Source of the DNA: Acidobacteriota bacterium
GTDB lineage: Bacteria > Acidobacteriota > Terriglobia > Bryobacterales > Bryobacteraceae
Direction of reading: 5' to 3'
NCBI GenBank assembly: GCA_029776225.1
Contig: JAKOTR010000022.1
Span: 124,001-188,000 of the forward strand
DNA: 64,000 nt
Positions 1-56,505 of the stretch are shown here, one piece after another. A model generated the notes under the pieces. The model had not been told where the DNA came from. It ran no database searches and worked only from the letters and a program-made list of their open reading frames with translations. Numbering within the stretch: the stretch's first letter is position 1; each line of letters opens with the position of its first letter. The translations under genes were made by a program, and so were the position numbers.

Positions 1-369
1 GATGGCGGCCTCCGTGGCCTCGGTTCCGGAGTTGCAGAAGAAGCTGCGCTTCAGGCCGCTGATTTCGGCCAGTTTCTGCGCGAGCCGTCCCTGGTATTCG
101 TGGTAGTAAAGGTTTGAGGAATGAATCAGCCGTGCAGCCTGCTCGCGGATGACACGCATGATACGGGGATGAGCATGGCCGAGAGCGTTCACACCGATTC
201 CGGCTATGAGATCTAGATATCGTTTGCCTTCCAGATCAAAGACATAGCAGCCCTTTCCTCGATGCAGTACGAGCGGATACCGGCTGTAGTTCTGCAGCAG
301 ATGCTGGTGTTCCAGATCAATGATTTCCTGCGCGGCAACCGACGCGCCGGACTCTGACGTCGTAAGCAT
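1..369 (-). CDS. argD: Acetylornithine/ornithine aminotransferase family protein, N-terminal part
   Basis: This is the first 123 codons of a class III pyridoxal-phosphate aminotransferase; the rest lies beyond the left edge of the window. The translation starts MLTTSESGAS and contains the family's N-terminal signature (RGKGCYVFDLEGKRYLDL, then AGIGVNALGHAHP) and the cofactor-phosphate loop FFCNSGTEATEAA. In ArgD-type enzymes this loop binds PLP during transamination of N-acetylornithine in arginine synthesis. The ATG at 369 is the only in-frame start that gives the family's usual N-terminus. The next gene is divergent, with only about 40 bp between the two starts. The family is clear. Whether the substrate is acetylornithine, ornithine or another omega-amino acid cannot be decided from this fragment. 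Confidence 0.85.
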   Translation of the reverse strand, partial: MLTTSESGASVAAQEIIDLEHQHLLQNYSRYPLVLHRGKGCYVFDLEGKRYLDLIAGIGVNALGHAHPRIMRVIREQAARLIHSSNLYYHEYQGRLAQKLAEISGLKRSFFCNSGTEATEAAI

Positions 370-27224: not shown

Positions 27225-30200
27225 ATGAAAAAAATTCGAATAAACGAGCTGGCGCGGGAATGCGAGCAACCCAACGCCGTAATCATCGCACTGCTCCCGC
27301 AGTTCGGCGTTACCGAAAAGAAAACGCACTCCAGCTCAATCGACGAGGATGTAGCCGACCAGATCCGGCGGCATTTTGGCGTCATCGTCGATAAGCGGGA
27401 AGCTGAAGTTGAAGCTCCCGCGAAGAAAGAGGCGGAGCCTGCGCCCGCACCGGCGCCGGCTGAGGTTGAGGCAAAGACTGAGGAGCCGAAGGCAGCCCCG
27501 GTTGTCGCAGAGCCGCCCGCACCCGTTCAGAAAGAAAAACCAGCCGAGACGAAGCCCAGCGGCATCGGGCTGACGGAGAGGCTGGCGACACGCCCCGCAG
27601 CGCAACCGCTGCGTCCGCCGCTGGCCACGCGCCGCCCCGCGGCACCCGAGCCCGCGCGCCCGGCGCCTCAACAACCGCCGGCTGCCGTGGTTATCCCACC
27701 ACAGCCGGAGAAGCCACCCGCGCAACCGCCTGCGCCGCAGCAGCCTGCACCGCAGCAGGCGCAGCCGCCCGTGCAGCAGGTACAACCTCCCGCACAGCCG
27801 CAGGAGCAGCCGCCTGCGCAGCCGCGTTTGACCCCGCCGGTCGCCGCCAAGCCGCTGCCGTCGCCACGGCCCGGCCAGATCATCTCCGGTCCGAGGCAGC
27901 CGTTTCCGGCGATTCCAGGAGAAATTCCGGGGCGTCCCGCGCCGCGGCCCGGACAGGTCGTGCAGCCGCCGCAACCGCGCCGTCCGGCGCAGCCGGCCGC
28001 GCCTCAGCAGCCGGCGGCTACTCAACCGTCTCAGCCCGCCGCTCAGACCGGCCAGCGCCCTCTTGCCGGCCAGCCTGTCGCGCGGCCCGTGGTGCCGCCG
28101 CGTCCCGACCTGGTAGCCAGGCTTCAACAGACCAAGGCGATGCCGGGTCAGCCCCAGGCTCGTCCTGGAACTCCCCGACCGCCCACGACGCCCATTCCGG
28201 GCCAGCCCATCTATCAGCCGCGAGGACCCCTCCGTCCGGGCCAGCCCTTGGCGCGCACCGGACGTCCGGGAGCTCCCGGTGCGCCCGGCCGCGGCCGCGG
28301 GCTACATCCCACGTCGCCGCTGCGTCCCGAGCCGGCTGTTGTTCCGGCCGCCGAGCAGCGCCGTCCGCAAAAATCGCATGCGCGGCAGGTAATTGATCGC
28401 GAAGTTGAGCGCGAAGGGAAAATCGCCCGCCCGGCTGCGCGTCGCGAGGATATCACCAAGCTCGCGGAGGGCAAGGAGATCACCATTGCCGAGGGGATCA
28501 CGGTCAAGGAGCTCTCCGAGAAGCTTGGCCTGAAGGCCAACGTGATCATCAAGCGGCTGGTCGAGAAGAAAATTTTCGCGACCATCAATCAGACGCTCGA
28601 CGTCAAGCTCGCCGAGCAACTGGCAAGAGAGTTTGGCGCCATTCCATCGCAGGTCAGCTACGAGGAAGAAGCGATTCTCCAGGAAGCGGACCTGGCCGAA
28701 GACGATGCCGGGCCGGTGAAGCGGCCGCCGGTGGTGACCATCATGGGCCACGTCGATCACGGGAAGACCTCGCTGCTCGACGCCATCCGGCTCACCAACG
28801 TTGTGGACAAGGAAGCCGGCGGGATCACGCAGCACATCGGCGCCTACCAGGTGGAGAAGGACGGCCGGCTGATCACCTTCATCGACACCCCGGGCCACGA
28901 AGCGTTCACCCGCATGCGCGCCCGCGGCGCCAAGGTGACGGACCTGGTGGTTCTGGTGGTGGCGGCCGATGACGGCGTGATGCCCCAGACGCTGGAAGCC
29001 ATTGACCACTCGCGTGCCGCGGGGGTTCCGCTGCTTGTGGCGATCAACAAGATCGACAAGCCAGACGCCCAGCCCGAGCGCGTGAAGCAACAGCTTTCCG
29101 ACCGCGGGCTGGTGCCCGAAGAGTGGGGCGGCGATACGGTAATGGTGCCGGTATCGGCGCGCACGAAACAGAATCTGGACCTGCTGCTCGAGATGATCCT
29201 GCTGGTTTCCGACCTGCAGGAATTGAAGGCGAATCCCCACCGGCCCGCTCTGGCGACGGTGCTGGAAGCGAAACTGGACCGCGGCCGGGGCCCGGTCGCC
29301 ACGGTGCTGGTGCGCAACGGCACGCTGCGGGTGGGGGATTACTTCATCTGCGGCTCGGTGTTCGGCAAGGTCCGTGCCCTGTATAACGACCGGGGCGAGT
29401 CGATCAGGGAAGCCGAGCCATCCCAGCCCGCCGAAGTGCTTGGTCTGGAAGCCCTTCCCGAGGTCGGCGAGACTTTGCAGGTTGTAACCGACACGGCGAA
29501 GGCGAAACAGATCGTGATGTACCGCGAAGCGAAGGCCCGCGAGTCGGCGATGGCCAAGAGCTCGCGCGTCACGCTCGATCAGTTGCACCAGCAGATCAAG
29601 GAAGGCGAGGTCAAGGAGCTTCGCATCATTCTGAAGGCCGACGTAGGCGGCAGCGCCGAAGTGCTTTCCGACACGCTGCAGAAGCTCTCCACCGACAAGG
29701 TGAAGATCCGGGTGATTCACAGCGGCGTGGGCGCTATCACCGAGACCGACGTGCTGCTGGCCTCAGCTTCGAACGCCATCGTGATCGGCTTCAACGTCCG
29801 GCCGGACCGCAACGCCGCAGCCGTGGCCGAGCAGGAGAAGGTTGACATCCGGCTGCACACGATCATCTACGACCTGACGGACGAGATCAAGCGCGCGATG
29901 ACCGGTATGCTCGAGCCGGTGTTCAAGGAGACGTTCCGAGGCCGGGCCGAGGTGAAGGAGACGTTCCGCATTTCGAAGATCGGCACGGTGGCCGGCTGCC
30001 TGGTGGTCGACGGCTCGATCACCCGCGATAGCGAGATCCGCGTGCTCCGCGACAACGTCGTGGTGTACAAGGGCAAGATCGGTTCACTGAAGAGGTTTAA
30101 GGATGACGCCAGCGAGGTCCGCAGCGGCCTCGAGTGCGGCATCGCGATTGAGAATTTTAACGACATCAAGCCGGGAGACGTACTGGAAGCGTTCGTTACC

Positions 30201-49184: not shown

Positions 49185-50702
49185 TCACCTCGGACCGGAA
49201 CTCGCTGGGTTAGAGCCGAAACTCGACGGGCCGGACTGGAACCCGGGCTGCGGAAAGCTGCCCGGCTGCCGCTGCGTGCCGGGCTGCTGCCCACCCAACT
49301 GCGGACCCATCATAAGCGGATTCATGAGCTCCTGGCGCGGATCGTACACGAATTCCCACTCGTTGTACTTGTTGCGCTCCTTGTAGACCTTGATGCCGTA
49401 AGCTTCAAGCTTGCTGGCAACCCCCGCGATTCCGCCGCCGATCACCTGACTGCCCATTGCGAAGCCCGGCTGAGCTCCGGGCTGCCTCAGCATCCGGTCT
49501 ATCATGGCGGGGACTGGCGTAGTGCCAGAAGCCGGGCCGGGCGGCGTTGCCCCCGCTGGGGGAGCGGGAGGCGCCTGCGTGTAGCCCGTGGGATCCTGCT
49601 GGGTCTGGGTCGGATAAGGGCTGCCTGGCGAAACCAGTGAGGGCTGGATGGGCAAACCGGGGACGGCAGGACCGTAACCCGGCTGCATTCCCGGTTGTAT
49701 GCCTGGCTGCTGTGTACCCTCCTGCTGCATGCCAGGCTGCATTCCCGGTTGCATTCCCGGATACTGCTGTCCCTGCTGGCCAGGCGTCAACGGAATAGGC
49801 TGCCCGGGTTGCACGCCGGGTTGCATCCCCGGCTGCATGACAGGATACGGCTGTCCGGGCTGGCCCGGGGTCAATGGTACCGGCTGTCCCGGCATGCCGG
49901 GTTGCATTCCCGGTTGCATGCCCGGATACTGCTGTCCCTCCTGGCCGGGCGTCAACGGAATAGGCTGCCCCTGCTGCATGCCGGGCTGCATCCCCGGTTG
50001 CATGACCGGATATGGCTGTCCAGGCTGACCCGGCTGCATGACTGGATACTGCTGGCCGGGCGCCAAGGGAACCGGCTGGCCCGGCTGGAACTGCACGGGC
50101 TGATCAGGCTGAACGCCGGGATACTGCGCGACGGGCTGCCCCGGTGCTTCGGGATTCCAACCCGGACTCGTGCTGCCGGCAAAGCCCGGCATGACAACCG
50201 TGCCTCCGGCACTCTCACTCGGTCTGAGCCGCGGCACCATGGAGGGGACAGCGGGGGCGTTCGGGTCGGATGCCTGCCCGCTCGATCCGATGGGGGTTCC
50301 GATGCTGGAGCCCATCTGCCCTTCCTGTTTCACCTGCGGCGGCTTCTGGACGAGCGAGTCGAGGAGCACGCCGCCGGGGCCGGCATGAATGAGCCGCCAG
50401 TCGTCGCTGTTCGTCATCGGGTCCTTATAGCGGCGGCGAAGAAAGCGGATGTTGTTCGTATTTTCAAGCTGGTCGATGCTGGCGGGATATCTGCCGGGGA
50501 ACTTGCGCATGTACAACTGAATGGCGCGGACGTACTGCTCGCCGCGCTCGATGAGCAGTTCCTCTTTCTCGCGCTGAGCTTGAAAGGCAACGCGAGGCAG
50601 CTCCATGTAGAGCATGATCGAAACCATGGCCGCCATCGCGAACACGAACAGCAGGGCGAATCCCGACTCCTGTTTTCCTACCGCGCGGCGGCCTGGTTTC
50701 AT
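49185..50702 (-). CDS. Pseudopilin-like protein with long Met-Gln-Pro-Gly repeat region
   Basis: A 505-residue protein with a pilin-like start: KQESGFALLFVFAMAAMVSIMLYMEL has the Gly-Phe cleavage site and helix of type IV pilins, but position +5 is Phe instead of Glu, as in minor pseudopilins. Residues about 50-110 (LLIERGEQYVRAIQLYMRKF, YPASIDQLENTN, RRRYKDPMT) look like a short GspG-type globular part. From about 200 to 340 runs a low-complexity repeat with units such as YPVMQPGMQPGM and GQPIPLTPGQ. A folded-looking end follows (GGGIAGVASKLEAYGIKVYKERNKYNEWEFVYDP). It is the last gene of the assembly operon (ATGA overlap with its neighbour). It may be a surface fibre or spacer. Confidence 0.75.
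   Translation of the reverse strand: MKPGRRAVGKQESGFALLFVFAMAAMVSIMLYMELPRVAFQAQREKEELLIERGEQYVRAIQLYMRKFPGRYPASIDQLENTNNIRFLRRRYKDPMTNSDDWRLIHAGPGGVLLDSLVQKPPQVKQEGQMGSSIGTPIGSSGQASDPNAPAVPSMVPRLRPSESAGGTVVMPGFAGSTSPGWNPEAPGQPVAQYPGVQPDQPVQFQPGQPVPLAPGQQYPVMQPGQPGQPYPVMQPGMQPGMQQGQPIPLTPGQEGQQYPGMQPGMQPGMPGQPVPLTPGQPGQPYPVMQPGMQPGVQPGQPIPLTPGQQGQQYPGMQPGMQPGMQQEGTQQPGIQPGMQPGYGPAVPGLPIQPSLVSPGSPYPTQTQQDPTGYTQAPPAPPAGATPPGPASGTTPVPAMIDRMLRQPGAQPGFAMGSQVIGGGIAGVASKLEAYGIKVYKERNKYNEWEFVYDPRQELMNPLMMGPQLGGQQPGTQRQPGSFPQPGFQSGPSSFGSNPASSGPR
49690..50110 (-). repeat. Coding tandem repeat (PGMQPG type) within the pseudopilin gene
   Basis: Imperfect tandem repeats of about 9-12 bases and larger units of about 130 bases encode Gln-Pro-Gly and Met-Gln-Pro-Gly runs. 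Larger units begin with GQPIPLTPGQ or GQPVPLTPGQ and are near copies of each other. Such repeats readily gain or lose units by slippage. Confidence 0.8.
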
Positions 50703-51388
50703 CCGGTCTGCTCCATCTGCAGAGTCTGCTGGTGCTTCGACTGAGTGTCCTCGACGACGCAGGAGTTGATCCCGATCTTCACGATCCGGTAGCGCCGCTG
50801 TATGAGTTCACCTTCCTCGGCGACCACAATCTCGTCGCCCTGGAGGAAAAAGGCCCGCTGAACCCCTTTCGGCGAAGGGCTGGCGTAGCCGTAAAACTTG
50901 AGCGGGATCGGCGGGGGAGGCGGTTTGGGCGGCTCCACCGGCTTTGGGGCCTCATCCGGCTGCTTTTCGACGACCGGCTTCGGGATGATTTTCGGCTCGG
51001 GCGTCTTGGGCATGGGCGCGGGGCCGAACTGGAACAGGTTGCGCGCGCCGCCCTGGAGAGTCACGTTCTGAACCTTGGCGAGCAGGTCGAGCCGCAGCGT
51101 GGGATCCACGGTAGTCGGATCGACACGCCTGTCCCTGAGGCTGAGGCGCAAGCCGCCGGAATCGGGACGCAGGGCCGGGCGCGGACGCGTCTCCGCGGGC
51201 GGCTGGCTCAAAGCGCTGCCTGCGGGGGCGGGGTTTGGCGCTACTGAGGTTGGCGCCGCTGCGCGCGCCGGAGTCCGGGCGGCCTGCGGCGGTGCGTCTC
51301 CTCCCCAGTTCGAGAACAGAAAAAACGCCAGGACGAGCAGAAGCCCGGCGAGCAACGCCACTTTTTTCGGTTCAGCTCCTACCTTCAT
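50699..51388 (-). CDS. PilP-like/GspC-like assembly protein
   Basis: A 229-residue protein with one N-terminal membrane helix (about 9-26, VALLAGLLLVLAFFLFSNW). A Pro/Ala-rich linker follows, then a C-terminal domain: ILKFYGYASPSP-like sequence PLKFYGYASPSPKGVQRAFFLQGDEIVVAEEGE. The latter resembles the homology region of PilP and GspC, which bridges the inner-membrane platform and the outer-membrane secretin. It overlaps pilO by an ATGA and the pseudopilin gene by an ATGA. Position after PilM-N-O supports the PilP role. Sequence alone is only suggestive. Confidence 0.7.
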   Translation of the reverse strand: MKVGAEPKKVALLAGLLLVLAFFLFSNWGGDAPPQAARTPARAAAPTSVAPNPAPAGSALSQPPAETRPRPALRPDSGGLRLSLRDRRVDPTTVDPTLRLDLLAKVQNVTLQGGARNLFQFGPAPMPKTPEPKIIPKPVVEKQPDEAPKPVEPPKPPPPPIPLKFYGYASPSPKGVQRAFFLQGDEIVVAEEGELIQRRYRIVKIGINSCVVEDTQSKHQQTLQMEQTG

Positions 51389-52185
51389 TGGATTTCCCTA
51401 GCTCCTGGCATCCGCCGCGGCGGCCGGGGCAAGAACCCGCGCGCCGGGCCTGGACTGGAAACCGCCGCCGGCGCTGCGGGCGCGGGCGGTGCGGCTTGCA
51501 CTGCGGTCGGGGCGCCGGCCTGCGCCGCCGGTTGCGGCTCCTCAGCGGCAGCGCGGGCGGGAGGCTCAGGCTCTACTTCGGGCGCCTCGGCCGGCGGTTC
51601 GCCTCCCTCGCGGACGAACCCGCAGAGCTTGAGCGTGGCGCCCAGCGTCAGACCGGATTGCTGCGGCGCCGCCGCAAGGCTCTCGATGATGAGAAAACGC
51701 TCGGAGCGGTCCAGCAGATTCAGAAACTCCATCAGGTCGGCGTAGGTGCCCTCGAAAATGCCGGTGATGGTCACCTTGGTGAGCGATTCGCTGCCCTCCA
51801 CAGGCTCGAAGGCGAACGCGGTTTCCTTCTGCCGCATACCGGCTTTCTGCGCGGTGCGGACGAGTTCCTGGACCAGCGCGGAGGCCATCGAGCGCTTCGA
51901 AAGCAGGTAGGTCTGTTCGAAGCGATCGCCGTCGCTGCGCGCCGTCTCCACTTTGTCGACGATGGCCCGCAGCCGCTCCAGCTCCCTCTCTCTCTGTTGA
52001 ACCTGCTGGCGCAGCGAGGATGCCTGCTGTTCGAGTTCCTCCACCGAACTGGCCCACGGCTTCAAGACGAATACGGCCGCCACCAGATTCGCGGCCAGCA
52101 GCGCGCCAAGGCCGAGGCGGACCATCATTCGCGGGTCCTTTCTACTCGATCTGGCGAAGCGGATGAGGCGTTCAAGCATGGTCAC
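51385..52185 (-). CDS. pilO: PilO-like inner-membrane assembly protein
   Basis: A 266-residue protein. A short cytoplasmic N-terminus is followed by one membrane helix (about 20-42, VRLGLGALLAANLVAAVFVL), then a coiled coil (VEELEQQASSLRQQVQQRERELERLRAI) and a ferredoxin-like domain (TKVTITGIFEGTYADLMEFLNLLDRSERFL), exactly as in PilO/GspM. The C-terminus is Ala/Pro-rich. The start is either GTG 52185, in a GTGA overlap with pilN, or ATG 52179. It pairs with PilN to form the inner-membrane platform. Confidence 0.85.
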   Translation of the reverse strand: MTMLERLIRFARSSRKDPRMMVRLGLGALLAANLVAAVFVLKPWASSVEELEQQASSLRQQVQQRERELERLRAIVDKVETARSDGDRFEQTYLLSKRSMASALVQELVRTAQKAGMRQKETAFAFEPVEGSESLTKVTITGIFEGTYADLMEFLNLLDRSERFLIIESLAAAPQQSGLTLGATLKLCGFVREGGEPPAEAPEVEPEPPARAAAEEPQPAAQAGAPTAVQAAPPAPAAPAAVSSPGPARGFLPRPPRRMPGAREIQ

Positions 52186-52754
52186 AACTTCTGCGAATAA
52201 TTTACGCTCACCCTGTATCGCAACAGGGGCTCGTTTTGCGACGGCGGCATGAAATTGTGGATCAGCGTCGCACCGAACTCCGGCGCGCGCTCGAGTTGCG
52301 CAAGCATCCGGATGACCGGTTCGCTCGATTCCGCTCCCACCACCATTTCCAGAGAGATCTGGTTTTCCGAGTTCACCTGCGGGCGAATGGAAATCAGCCG
52401 CACGTTGTGGGGCATGATCTTTTCGAGATCGTCAAACAGCCGCGTCCAACTGATGCCCTTGGCGTAGATGAGGTTGTTGAGAAACAGGCTGCGCTCCAGC
52501 ACCGCGGCGTTCTCCGGCTTGCGCAGTACGGCCTCGAGCTTTGCCTGCTCGGCGGCCAGCGTGCGCAGGCGTGCTTCGAGTTCGTTGATGGCTTTCCGGG
52601 TCTCGGCGGCCTGGCCCGTCTCCATCACGGAGAGAGAAATCAAAAGGACCAGCAGGCCGGTGAGCAGCACGGCAATGCCCGCCGAAGCCGCCAGGACCGG
52701 CCGCGTGCGCTGGAAGGGTTCAGTGGCCAGATTGATCGGGATCTTCAACCTCAC
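52182..52754 (-). CDS. pilN: PilN-like inner-membrane assembly protein
   Basis: A 190-residue protein beginning at GTG 52754 with GGAGG just before it. The start KIPINLATEPFQRTR includes the INLA-type motif that binds PilM in type IV pili. A membrane helix follows (about 20-44), then a coiled coil (TRKAINELEARLRTLAAEQAKLE) and a ferredoxin-like domain (NVRLISIRPQVNSENQISLEMVV). It overlaps pilM and pilO in GTGA overlaps. It links the cytoplasmic PilM ring with periplasmic PilO. The family is well supported by motif and context. Confidence 0.87.
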   Translation of the reverse strand: MRLKIPINLATEPFQRTRPVLAASAGIAVLLTGLLVLLISLSVMETGQAAETRKAINELEARLRTLAAEQAKLEAVLRKPENAAVLERSLFLNNLIYAKGISWTRLFDDLEKIMPHNVRLISIRPQVNSENQISLEMVVGAESSEPVIRMLAQLERAPEFGATLIHNFMPPSQNEPLLRYRVSVNYSQKL

Positions 52755-53647
52755 GCAACCTCCTCAATTCTTTCCAGGCAGCCCAGCAGGCCGGCGTCGT
52801 GAGGACGCGGGACGCCGAAGCGCGAGCGCAACGGTTCGATTGCCGGGCCGTCGCCATTGCCCAATTCCTGACTCAAAGGCCCGGCAAGAGAACCCGGAGC
52901 GCAAAGCAGCACTTTTTCGGGTTTGGCTTCGAGCTGGTCCTCAATATAGGCGAAAGTCGGGAAGAGGTGGGAGGCGATCTCGGCGGCGCTTCCGTCCGCC
53001 ACCTCCAGGGTGCGAAGCAGCTTCAAAGTGCCGTCCCGCGTGACAGCGAGCGTCAGCGTGTGTCCGCTGACTTTCACCAGCACGGAGACGCCGGCGTCCT
53101 TCACCAATTCCAGCGCGCACAACGCAGAGGTGGTCACCAGTCCGGGATGGAAACCGGCCGCTCTGAACGGCGCCTCGTATCGCGCGAGAATTTCAAGCGG
53201 CGTCACGGCGACCACCACGTCCCGGCTCTTGCCGTGTGCTCCGTTGGGCTGCGGGTAATAGCTGACACAGGCCGAGTCGAGATCGAACGGCAGGCTTTTC
53301 TTTATCCGGAACTTTACGAGCGAGAGCTGCTGAGCGGGGTCCGAGGGGAATGCATCGAAATCGAGAACAGAGACGCGCACGCTGAAATCGGGCAGAATCA
53401 GCACGGCGCGCTGGGGCTTTTTTTCATTCTGGGGCGCGAGCTCCTTCACCTTCGCCAGCAGCACGTCCGGGCGAAGCACGTTATCGCGGACAGGCGAGAC
53501 CGCAATCACGTCCGGCTCGAGCGGCTGAAACCCGATCTGCGGCGGGCGGCCGTTTCGAGCCGCAGCGATTCCGGCCGCGGACAGTTCGAAAACGTACCGC
53601 GGCGGCGGGTCCTGGATGAGTCTCGCGATGAAAGAAGGCAACCGCAT
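52751..53647 (-). CDS. pilM: PilM-like cytoplasmic actin-like assembly ATPase
   Basis: A 298-residue protein of the PilM type (actin-like fold). Segments include VFELSAAGIAAARNG, VLILPDFSVRVSVLDFDAFP, QQLSLVKFRIKKSLPFDLD, VVVAVTPLEILARYEAPFRAAGF and VSGHTLTLAVTRDGTLKLLRTLE. PilM binds the N-terminal peptide of PilN and connects it to the motor ATPase. It is slightly short, and the first segment does not show a fully canonical phosphate-1 loop, so nucleotide binding may be weak. It lies between the motor ATPase gene and pilN in the assembly operon. Confidence 0.85.
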   Translation of the reverse strand: MRLPSFIARLIQDPPPRYVFELSAAGIAAARNGRPPQIGFQPLEPDVIAVSPVRDNVLRPDVLLAKVKELAPQNEKKPQRAVLILPDFSVRVSVLDFDAFPSDPAQQLSLVKFRIKKSLPFDLDSACVSYYPQPNGAHGKSRDVVVAVTPLEILARYEAPFRAAGFHPGLVTTSALCALELVKDAGVSVLVKVSGHTLTLAVTRDGTLKLLRTLEVADGSAAEIASHLFPTFAYIEDQLEAKPEKVLLCAPGSLAGPLSQELGNGDGPAIEPLRSRFGVPRPHDAGLLGCLERIEEVA

Positions 53648-53657
53648 ATGTCTTCCG

Positions 53658-55283
53658 TCAACCCTCGATGAAGGTGACCTTGTTGATCTCCCTCAGGGTG
53701 GTAATTCCGGCCCGCGCTTTGTCCAGCGCGCACTCGCGCAGGAACGTCATTCCCTCCTCACGGGCCACCCGCTTGATTTCCGACGTGGGCCGCTTGTCGA
53801 GAATCATTTCGCGGATGCGTTCGCTCAGATCGAGCAGTTCGGTAATCGCGGTCCGCCCGCGGAAACCGGTGCCGCCGCATTCAAAGCAACCCTCGCCTTC
53901 ATAGAGGGGAACGTCGCGCCACTTCTCCGGATCGAGGCCGCTTTCGATGAGGTACGCGTCGGTGTAGTGCGCTCGGCGCTTGCAATGCTCGCAGATCACG
54001 CGGACAAGCCGCTGCGCCAGAATGCAGTTGAGCGCCGAAACGAAGTTGTACGGCTCGACGCCCATGTTCAGGAAACGTCCCAGCACGTCGAACACATTGT
54101 TCGCGTGGACGGTGGTGAAAACCAGGTGGCCGGTGAGCGCGGCGTTGATGGCGATCTGGGCGGTTTCCTGGTCGCGGATTTCGCCGACCATGATTTTGTC
54201 GGGGTCGTGCCGCAAAATTGAGCGCAGCCCGCGCGCGAAGGTGAGGCCCTTCTTTTCGTTCACCGGAATCTGGGTGATGCCCTTCACCTGGTATTCGACC
54301 GGGTCTTCGATCGTGATGATCTTGTCTTCGTCGTTCTTGATCTCGCTCAGCGCGGCGTAAAGCGTGGTAGTCTTGCCCGATCCGGTGGGGCCGGTGACGA
54401 GCACCATCCCGTAAGGCTCCTTGATGTACCGCCGGAACTTGGCCAGGTCGCTTTCCGGAAACCCGACCACATCGAGGGTGAGCTTGGCGAACTTTTCGCT
54501 CATCGACTCCTTGTCGAGCACGCGGAGCACGGCGTCCTCGCCGTGTATGGTGGGCATGATCGACACGCGGAAGTCGATAAGCCGGTTCTTGTAGCGGACG
54601 CGAAAGCGGCCATCCTGGGGCACGCGGCGCTCGGCGATGTCGAGTTCCGACATGACCTTGATGCGCGAAAGGATGGTGGAGTGCCACTCCTTGGCGATGG
54701 GCGGCATGGCATAGTGCAGCACGCCATCGATGCGGTACTTGATGGCTACTTCGGTGTCGCGCGTTTCGATATGTATGTCCGATGCGCGGCGCTCAAGCGC
54801 GTTAAAGATGGTGGTATCGACCAGGCGGATGACGGGAGCGATGTCGCTCTCAGCCCCGGTCAGGCGGTCGATGGAAAGCGTTTCCTCGGCGTTCTCCTCA
54901 TCGGCGACGACATCGAGCGTGAAGCTTTCGGTGACCTCCTCGAGCACGCGCTGCGACTGCTCGGTTTTCTTCAGCAGGTCGGAGATCTGCGACAGCGACG
55001 CCACCTTCACGCGCAGCTTCTTCTGCAGCAGGATGGTGAGTTCGTCGATGAGATTGAGGTTCCGCGGGTCGGCCAGCGCGATTTCGAGCGTCCCGTTCTC
55101 CGCGCGCAGCGGGACGAAGTTGTACCGGAACATCAGTTCCACGGGTATCGAGCGGAACAGGTCGTGGTCGATGTGCCCTTCCCGGAGATCGACATACTCG
55201 TAGCGGTAACGGCGCGCCAGTTCCTGAGCCTGCAAGGCCTCCTGAGCTGGATCCGCGATTTTCGAACGTTCCGTGGTGGCCAA
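53658..55283 (-). CDS. pilB: GspE/PilB-family assembly motor ATPase
   Basis: A 541-residue AAA-like secretion ATPase. TTG 55283, with GGAG seven bases before it, is the best start. The N-terminal MshEN-type domain (about 20-150) is followed by the ATPase: Walker A GPTGSGKTT (about 298-306), the Asp box and Walker B region (IITIEDPVEYQVKGITQIPVNEKKGLTFARGLRSILRHDPDKIMVGEIRD, in parts) and His box LVFTTVHANN. The tetra-Cys zinc motif (CEHC and later CFECGG, about 430-470) is intact. ATP hydrolysis drives polymerisation of pilins or pseudopilins. Downstream pilM-N-O suggest a pilus-type machine, but the ATPase could also serve a type II-like secretion role. Confidence 0.93.
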   Translation of the reverse strand: MATTERSKIADPAQEALQAQELARRYRYEYVDLREGHIDHDLFRSIPVELMFRYNFVPLRAENGTLEIALADPRNLNLIDELTILLQKKLRVKVASLSQISDLLKKTEQSQRVLEEVTESFTLDVVADEENAEETLSIDRLTGAESDIAPVIRLVDTTIFNALERRASDIHIETRDTEVAIKYRIDGVLHYAMPPIAKEWHSTILSRIKVMSELDIAERRVPQDGRFRVRYKNRLIDFRVSIMPTIHGEDAVLRVLDKESMSEKFAKLTLDVVGFPESDLAKFRRYIKEPYGMVLVTGPTGSGKTTTLYAALSEIKNDEDKIITIEDPVEYQVKGITQIPVNEKKGLTFARGLRSILRHDPDKIMVGEIRDQETAQIAINAALTGHLVFTTVHANNVFDVLGRFLNMGVEPYNFVSALNCILAQRLVRVICEHCKRRAHYTDAYLIESGLDPEKWRDVPLYEGEGCFECGGTGFRGRTAITELLDLSERIREMILDKRPTSEIKRVAREEGMTFLRECALDKARAGITTLREINKVTFIEG

Positions 55284-55293
55284 TGTCTACTCC

Positions 55294-56505
55294 TTATCCC
55301 AAAGTGTCCGCGAGCGAAAAGATCGGCAGATATAGGGCCACGAGTACGAACGCCACAAAGACGCCCATAAAAATCATGATTGCCGGCTCGATGAGCGAGA
55401 GGGCCGCCTGCATGCGCGTATTGACGTCGTCCTCATAAAACTCCGCCACGCTGGAAAGCATCGAGGGCAAGGCTCCGGTCGATTCACCCACCTCGATCAT
55501 CTCGATGCAAAGAGTGGGAAACAGTTTGGTCGAGGACAGGGCCGTGGAAAGCGACTGCCCCTCCTTCACGAGCTTTTGAGCCTGTTCCAGCGCTATCTTC
55601 AGCAGGCTGGCGCCGATCGACTGCGCCGCCGTTTCCAGCGCCTGCACCAGCGGAATGCCGCCGGTCAGCAGCGTGCTCAGCACGCGCGAAAACTGCGCGA
55701 CCTGGTACTTCAGCCAGATCTCGCCGAATATGGGCGTGGCCATCTTCATGCGGTCGACCTTCGTGCGGGCGGCTTCGCTCCGCGACCACAGACGAAAGAT
55801 GACCAGGCCCGCGATAAGCGCCAGGAAGGCGGCCAAAACATAGTTCCGCGCCGTAGTGCCGACGGCAATCAGGATGAGGGTCATCTGCGGCAGCCGCGCC
55901 TCCATGCTGCTGTAAAGCTGGGCGAAATTGGGCACTACGTAGGTGATCAGAAATACGATCAACCCGAAAACCAGCACCAGCAGCACCGAGGGGTAGATCA
56001 GCGACACAAGAACCTTCTTCCGCACCGCCAGCGCCATTTTCTGATAGGCGATAAAGCGCTCCAGCACCTCGGACAAGCTGCCGCTCTTCTCCCCCGCCAT
56101 GATCGAGGTGACGTAGGCGGGCGGAAAGACCCCCTGGTTGCGGAACGCCTCGGAAAGCTGCACCCCGTTTTTCACGTCGTCGCGGACGGCCTGGATATAG
56201 CGGCGGAGTTTGGCATCGGAAAGGCGGTCGGCGAGCAGATCCAGTCCCTTGAGAATCGGCAACCCGGCGCGGACGAGAGTCACAAACTGCTGGTTGAAAA
56301 TCAGGAACTTTTCTAAATTGACCTTCTTGCGGGGGGCACGGATGGCCGGCGAGAGCGTGCCGATTCCGCCGCGCGGCCGCACGGAATAGATCAGGTAGCC
56401 TTGCTGTGCAAAGCGCTCGCGAACCTCCTCCTCGGAGGCGCCGGTAGCCACCTGCTGGTGCAATTCGCCCCGGCTATCGGCGTATTTCAGGACCCACTCC
56501 GCCAT
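55294..56505 (-). CDS. pilC: GspF/PilC-family inner-membrane platform protein
   Basis: A 403-residue platform protein of standard length with two GspF repeats. Helices are in VLVSLIYPSVLLVLVFGLIVFLITYVVPNF (about 170-195), YVLAAFLALIAGLVIF (about 220) and the C-terminal IEPAIMIFMGVFVAFVLVALYLPIF. Each repeat has a helix-rich cytoplasmic domain (FLIFNQQFVTLVRAGLPILKGL, then QFSRVLSTLLTGGIPLVQALE). It anchors the motor ATPase and moves pilin subunits out of the membrane. It lies between lolA and the ATPase gene. Confidence 0.94.
   Translation of the reverse strand: MAEWVLKYADSRGELHQQVATGASEEEVRERFAQQGYLIYSVRPRGGIGTLSPAIRAPRKKVNLEKFLIFNQQFVTLVRAGLPILKGLDLLADRLSDAKLRRYIQAVRDDVKNGVQLSEAFRNQGVFPPAYVTSIMAGEKSGSLSEVLERFIAYQKMALAVRKKVLVSLIYPSVLLVLVFGLIVFLITYVVPNFAQLYSSMEARLPQMTLILIAVGTTARNYVLAAFLALIAGLVIFRLWSRSEAARTKVDRMKMATPIFGEIWLKYQVAQFSRVLSTLLTGGIPLVQALETAAQSIGASLLKIALEQAQKLVKEGQSLSTALSSTKLFPTLCIEMIEVGESTGALPSMLSSVAEFYEDDVNTRMQAALSLIEPAIMIFMGVFVAFVLVALYLPIFSLADTLG

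Follow-up and report, generated by a model that had tools for sequence, protein, structure and literature searches.

A probable minor pseudopilin with a predicted disordered repeat loop, encoded in a type II secretion-like gene cluster of Acidobacteriota

Many soils are rich in Acidobacteriota. In the part of the literature that was searched, almost nothing was found on the secretion machines of these bacteria. Type IV pili and secretion pistons are built from proteins of the pilin superfamily. In a genome of the order Bryobacterales of this phylum, a stretch of 64,000 nucleotides (further referred to as the window) harbours a gene for a protein that starts like a pilin and continues into a long tract of short repeats. 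This raises the question which type of subunit the protein is, to which machine it belongs, and what a tract of this kind means for a pilin fold.

The gene starts with ATG and its product (Table 1) begins with MKPGRRAVGKQESG, a basic leader of 14 residues whose last residue is Gly. The hydrophobic stretch behind it, FALLFVFAMAAMVSIMLYMELP, has a Pro at position 22 of the mature protein. The junction of Gly and an aromatic residue aligns in 122 homologues, with a mean leader charge of +2.7 and with Pro22 conserved in 117 of them. The sequence therefore carries a class-III leader as known for the type IV pilin and pseudopilin superfamily. An AlphaFold2 (AF2) model, built on a 34-sequence alignment, predicts the long N-terminal helix and the alpha/beta head of this superfamily, and the gene is encoded together with an assembly ATPase and a platform protein. 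Prepilin peptidase genes are present. No family in Pfam or NCBIfam recognises the protein; weak Pfam matches to PycTM and Clr2 were taken as chance. Pfam N_methyl is passed by a relative (L174, 26.3 versus a cut-off of 21.2), while the window protein itself does not pass it. A sequence search of solved structures returned just weak matches, to the N-terminal helices of PilE, PulG and geopilin (best 0.014-0.017), besides several helical-repeat matches that are false hits. Profile matches to PilE and PulG are weak as well and begin at mature residue 1. The leader, the helix and the GspG-type head described below support the pilin-like N-terminus and the pseudopilin identity proposed in an earlier, sequence-only reading of this DNA.

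Table 1 Features of the pseudopilin gene and of the genes upstream of it (positions in the window; residues in the 505-aa product)
Feature	Position	Strand	Basis
Pseudopilin gene, 505 aa	49185..50702	(-)	ORF; homologues in 59/61 relatives; 4-bp overlap with upstream gene
Putative class-III (prepilin) leader, residues 1-14	50661..50702	(-)	Sequence; predicted cut before Phe15
Predicted long N-terminal helix, mature residues 1-53	50502..50660	(-)	AF2 helix 13-67, pLDDT mostly 90+
First head part (YP..L....RFLRR.YKDPMT...WRLIH), residues 68-117	50352..50501	(-)	Invariant columns; own GspG paralog E 3e-12
Low-complexity spacer, residues 118-421	49440..50351	(-)	Predicted disordered loop insertion, pLDDT mostly under 50 (AF2)
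Embedded RxRPS[DE] motif, residues 158-163	50214..50231	(-)	Variant copy, missed by strict pattern
MQPG / QP[IV]PLTPG repeat tract, residues 191-345	49668..50132	(-)	TRF, motif positions, shuffle control
Embedded short amphipathic helix PAMIDRMLRQ, residues 397-406	49485..49514	(-)	AF2 helix 397-406
Second head part (GGGIAGVASK...KYNEWEFVYD), residues 422-456	49335..49439	(-)	pLDDT 88-95; equals GspG C-terminus
Low-complexity P/G/Q/S tail, residues 457-505, and stop	49185..49334	(-)	Sequence
GspC/PilP-like inner-membrane protein	50699..51388	(-)	Weak GspB/YidC-type N-terminal matches; name rests on position
PilO/GspM-like protein	51385..52185	(-)	PF10741 and PF04350 over cut-off
PilN-like protein	52182..52754	(-)	PF05137 E 0.003, below cut-off; synteny
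PilM/GspL-like protein	52751..53647	(-)	Weak TIGR01175 E 0.009; synteny
Assembly ATPase GspE/PilB	53658..55283	(-)	PF00437 436 bits
Platform protein GspF/PilC	55294..56505	(-)	PF00482 199 bits

The Met-Gln-Pro-Gly and QPIPLTPG repeats reported earlier are real. TRF detected an array at 49726-50034 with a period of 84 bp (3.7 copies, score 372) and a second period of 165 bp (1.9 copies, 89% matches, score 509), and residues 191-345 contain MQPG ten times and QP[IV]PL[TA]PG four times. At the DNA level, exact repeats within the spacer reach 23 bp, longer than in any of 200 codon shuffles (mean 11.6, maximum 17); the spacer thus repeats more than expected by chance, and together with the TRF result this rules out chance or composition as the source of the repeats. 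The period of 4 residues is only weakly expressed, with 28% amino acid identity at a lag of 4 versus 48% at a lag of 55, and the array is therefore a compound one. The length of about 140 residues given in the earlier reading has to be corrected: the spacer comprises 304 aa (P 23, Q 18 and G 16 percent), of which about 155 make up the repeat tract. A further low-complexity tandem-repeat region, with a period of 15-24 bp, lies elsewhere in the window at 27728-27822.

In the sequence-only reading the repeats linked the pilin-like N-terminus to a separate C-terminal domain. Every close relative indeed shows two conserved blocks, an N block (residues 1-117 in the window protein) and a C block (422-456; GIAGVASK...GIKVY..R.KYNEWEFVYD), with a low-complexity spacer in between and, in the close sets, a tail of 26-183 aa behind the C block. 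In the AF2 model pLDDT is about 88-97 for residues 21-120 and 421-460, but mostly under 50 between them. VIA-align matches residues 10..452 of this model to PulG pseudopilus structure 5wda (chain 1..129), with 114 of 130 residues aligned and a middling Z of 6.0. Foldseek with the full 505-aa model gave no match, probably because the search was swamped by disorder. The stronger structural match belongs to a shorter relative (L116, 276 aa) and not to the full-length window model: residues 46..232 of the L116 model align with PulG (1t92) at Z 9.1 over 93 of 108 residues, and with EpsG at Z 8.5 (3fu1) and 8.2 (4lw9). Each of these alignments covers both sides of the spacer of L116 itself.

With the C block as its only query, BLASTP found no match to GspG in register (E 0.37), for which reason profiles and structures were needed. 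A profile in which the N and C blocks had been spliced by us matched the GspG paralogs of the same genome with an hhalign E value of 2e-16, reaching their C-terminal YSEW. The splicing was controlled for by shuffling the columns of the C block: the joined profile scored 97.9 with the real block versus 83.9 +/- 1.6 (maximum 91.8) in 100 shuffles, and the C block alone landed on positions 134-156 of the GspG template with a score of 19.7 versus 9.4 +/- 1.8 when shuffled. Furthermore, the two blocks are nearly contiguous in outlying classes of the phylum, with gaps of 8 residues (L183), 11 residues (L171, L185, L186) and 14 residues (L170). Structure, profiles and these almost uninserted relatives together rule out a separate C-terminal domain. 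All of them show residues 11-120 and 421-456 as a single GspG-type pseudopilin head that is completed by the 35-residue C block, and the repeats are a loop insertion in this head rather than a linker to a second domain.

The pseudopilin gene is the last of an operon with the order gspF-gspE-pilM-pilN-pilO-gspC/pilP-pseudopilin, in which 10-bp gaps are followed by four 4-bp overlaps. This order is kept wherever the contig extends far enough among 97 pseudopilin loci, which span 4-15 kb and include some genomes counted twice, from two collections. A gspC/pilP-like gene was found at 96 of these loci, pilN at 92, pilM at 89, gspE at 86, pilO at 83 and gspF at 65. The GspC/PilP-like protein of the window likewise has long Pro-rich linkers, and disorder may be a theme of the machine. 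Two records with an Acidobacteriota operon are titled Arcobacter sp. and Acidimicrobiia (L104, L092) and look like mislabelled metagenome bins.

In a class-level relative (L150) the genes are contiguous in the order gspD-gspG1-gspG2-gspF-gspE-pilM-pilN-gspC/pilP-pseudopilin, with no pilO detected. The components of a type II secretion system, i.e. secretin, ATPase, platform protein, major pseudopilin and inner-membrane complex, are thus found together in this relative, so that the machine is type II secretion-like and the window protein its third pseudopilin. In the genome of the window the machine is split over two contigs, gspD and two GspG-type pseudopilins being located on contig C42. Since the contigs are separate, the link of the pseudopilin to gspD and gspG rests on the one relative; additional secretins and ATPases are present in the genome, and its N_methyl proteins occur at C42, C46 and C14 only. 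The partner secretin on C42 (L153:4156-6600) has TPR repeats at its N-terminus and a cohesin domain at its C-terminus (PF00963, 43.3 bits, cut-off 24.1). To our knowledge, TPR repeats and a cohesin domain are unusual for GspD. At a distance of about 22 kb from the window, a secretin occurs together with a second, Tad-like secretion ATPase (G000:C17:209760-212725), which points to a further filament system nearby.

A Glu at mature position 5 is a mark of GspG, the major pseudopilin. In type 4 filaments this residue of one subunit pairs with the N-terminus of its neighbour, and the subunit that caps the tip complex lacks it (PMC10191384). Glu5 was found in none of 122 close-set homologues and none of 29 phylum-wide homologues (151 sequences; the close sets share some genomes). 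The two GspG paralogs of the same genome (C42:90619 and 91085) carry Glu5 and pass Pfam N_methyl. The GspG model TIGR01710 does not match the window protein, and short relatives reach 16.7-18.1 bits versus a cut-off of 88.85. In these two features the protein departs from the GspG major pseudopilins. Absence of Glu5 is a feature of GspK, in which an alpha-domain is inserted in the pilin beta-sheet and for which a position at the tip has been proposed (PMC8179133). The GspK profile NF037980 does not match the window protein either (one relative scores 11 bits, cut-off 130), and its insert is of low complexity with pLDDT mostly under 50, where a folded alpha-domain would be expected in GspK. An extra segment as in modular pilins is present, with no domain recognised in it by Pfam or NCBIfam.

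The earlier suggestion of a variable, extended surface fibre would make the protein a major or abundant pilin whose repeats form that fibre. The pilin fold and the machine agree with this proposal, as does the length variation among close species described below. A major-fibre role is nevertheless unlikely: no homologue has Glu5, and the machine includes two GspG paralogs that do. Also an ordered fibre is unlikely, since the insert is predicted to be disordered, and many relatives are nearly devoid of repeats. Taken together, a surface fibre is considered quite improbable. Another proposal is that the protein is prepilin-like but never polymerised, residing in the inner-membrane PilMNO/GspC platform where the loop tethers or spaces periplasmic partners. 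Its fixed place beside gspC/pilP with a 4-bp overlap, the Pro-rich linkers of the adjoining GspC/PilP-like protein and the lack of Glu5, which fits a non-polymerising membrane-anchored subunit too, would all be explained. However, the Gly at position -1, Pro22 and the basic leader are conserved, the GspG-type head is complete, and the N-terminus of L174 passes N_methyl, making such a platform subunit unlikely.

The spacer ranges from 43 to 379 aa in the close sets and from 8 to 154 aa in the phylum-wide set, and nearly all close relatives have a low-complexity loop. The repeats therefore differ in length among the relatives; a uniform length would have counted against the sequence-only reading. 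In a tree constructed from the N and C blocks and rooted with GspG paralogs, spacers measure 8-84 residues in deep-branching classes, 34-154 in a Terriglobales-type clade and 58-328 in the clade of the window protein; the wider Bryobacterales set reaches 379 aa. Support is weak for many of the deep forks (23 of 60 inner branches are open), and hence only the overall growth trend is usable. As an overall trend, these sequences indicate that the insertion is derived and that the loop grew from about 10 residues in the outlying classes to 170-380 in Bryobacterales.

Lengths also differ among near relatives. Three relatives with N blocks that are 95-96% identical (L081, L087 and L083) have spacers of 261, 311 and 323 aa, and the differences of 50 and 62 aa between the first and the other two are located in a GYNPQT array. 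Two genus-mates of the window's species have spacers of 206 and 173 aa versus 304 in the window protein. Such between-species differences fit slippage or recombination, and the variability anticipated for the insert is borne out in this respect. The repeat units vary by genus (PGQPQY, GYNPQT, GQPGQP and others), and the longest internal repeat in the many nearly repeat-free relatives is 4-5 aa; it is thus the composition and the presence of the loop that are conserved rather than the repeat.

These data might be taken to mean that the loop has no function and is simply a tolerant surface loop, grown by replication slippage in a GC-rich genome. Genus-specific units are in line with this, and so are a composition that shifts among relatives between P/Q/G, G/S/A and G/N, and spacers whose divergence far outpaces that of the head (e.g. 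80% identity in the N block versus 37% in the spacer). Bryobacterales-type spacers, however, are all above about 170 aa and none has been lost, 107 of 109 spacers are devoid of Cys, and net charge is near zero. Moreover, two short motifs recur far above shuffled spacers. Of 78 long spacers, 50 contain an RRPS[DE]-like motif (shuffles mean 2.8, maximum 7) and 43 have an LIxxLL-like helix ahead of the C block (shuffles mean 0.5, maximum 3), which indicates that the loop is not purely random filler. We therefore regard a neutral loop as a rather doubtful explanation.

The explanation that accounts best for these findings, and the one we hold to be probable, is that the protein is a minor (tip) pseudopilin in a type II secretion-like machine of Acidobacteriota, combining GspK-like features with a GspG-like fold and a predicted disordered loop module. 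In the computed fold the chain leaves the GspG-type head after its first strand, passes through the loop of 304 residues and comes back to complete the head. Prepilin peptidase would cleave the leader, and the subunit may then occupy the tip of a short pseudopilus made of GspG, priming assembly like GspK; a tip position is suggested because no Glu5 contact is possible with a subunit above. A GspK-like working of the window protein can at most be proposed by analogy. Inside the secretin channel or at the channel mouth, the loop, which among relatives turns over by gain and loss of repeats, may serve as a flexible arm or brush. It would be tolerant of changes in sequence and length and engage the secretin, the substrate or the wall via its composition and a few short motifs. 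More tentatively, the fast-evolving disordered loop of this phylum-wide tip pseudopilin, in place of a folded domain, might be the functional module, a length-tunable, genus-specific arm for gating the secretin or for capturing substrates; this is a possibility to which we attach low confidence.

The family represents a conserved machine component that is unrecognised by any Pfam or NCBIfam model. Its almost uninserted state survives in other classes of the phylum, providing a natural length series from 8 to 379 residues, with which the role of inserted modules in secretion pseudopili can be addressed. The sequence-only reading knew of no pilin with such an insert. This holds in part: inserted and grafted modules are known in pilins (PMC8179133), while in the part of the literature that was searched neither a disordered repeat insertion in a pilin nor an Acidobacteriota protein of this kind is described.

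Among known systems, GspG (PulG/EpsG), the major pseudopilin, shares the fold of the head and also its sequence, including DPMTG..W and the terminal YxEW. The window family differs from GspG by the lack of Glu5, an insertion of 8-379 residues and a C-terminal tail. The GspG1 and GspG2 paralogs of the same genome belong to the same head family, and their counterparts in L150 are contiguous with the pseudopilin operon; unlike the window protein they carry Glu5 and have no long insertion. GspK (PulK/XcpX), the tip minor pseudopilin of type II secretion systems, is a minor subunit of the secretion pseudopilus and lacks Glu5 like the window protein. Its insert is a folded alpha-domain, in contrast to the low-complexity, predicted disordered repeats found here, and the head of the window family best matches GspG rather than GspK. 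Modular pilins (Streptococcus sanguinis PilB and PilC, CofB and ComZ) carry an extra module on a pilin module, which is thought to be presented at the tip (PMC8179133). The modules of these proteins are folded domains, whereas that of the window protein is a predicted disordered repeat loop.
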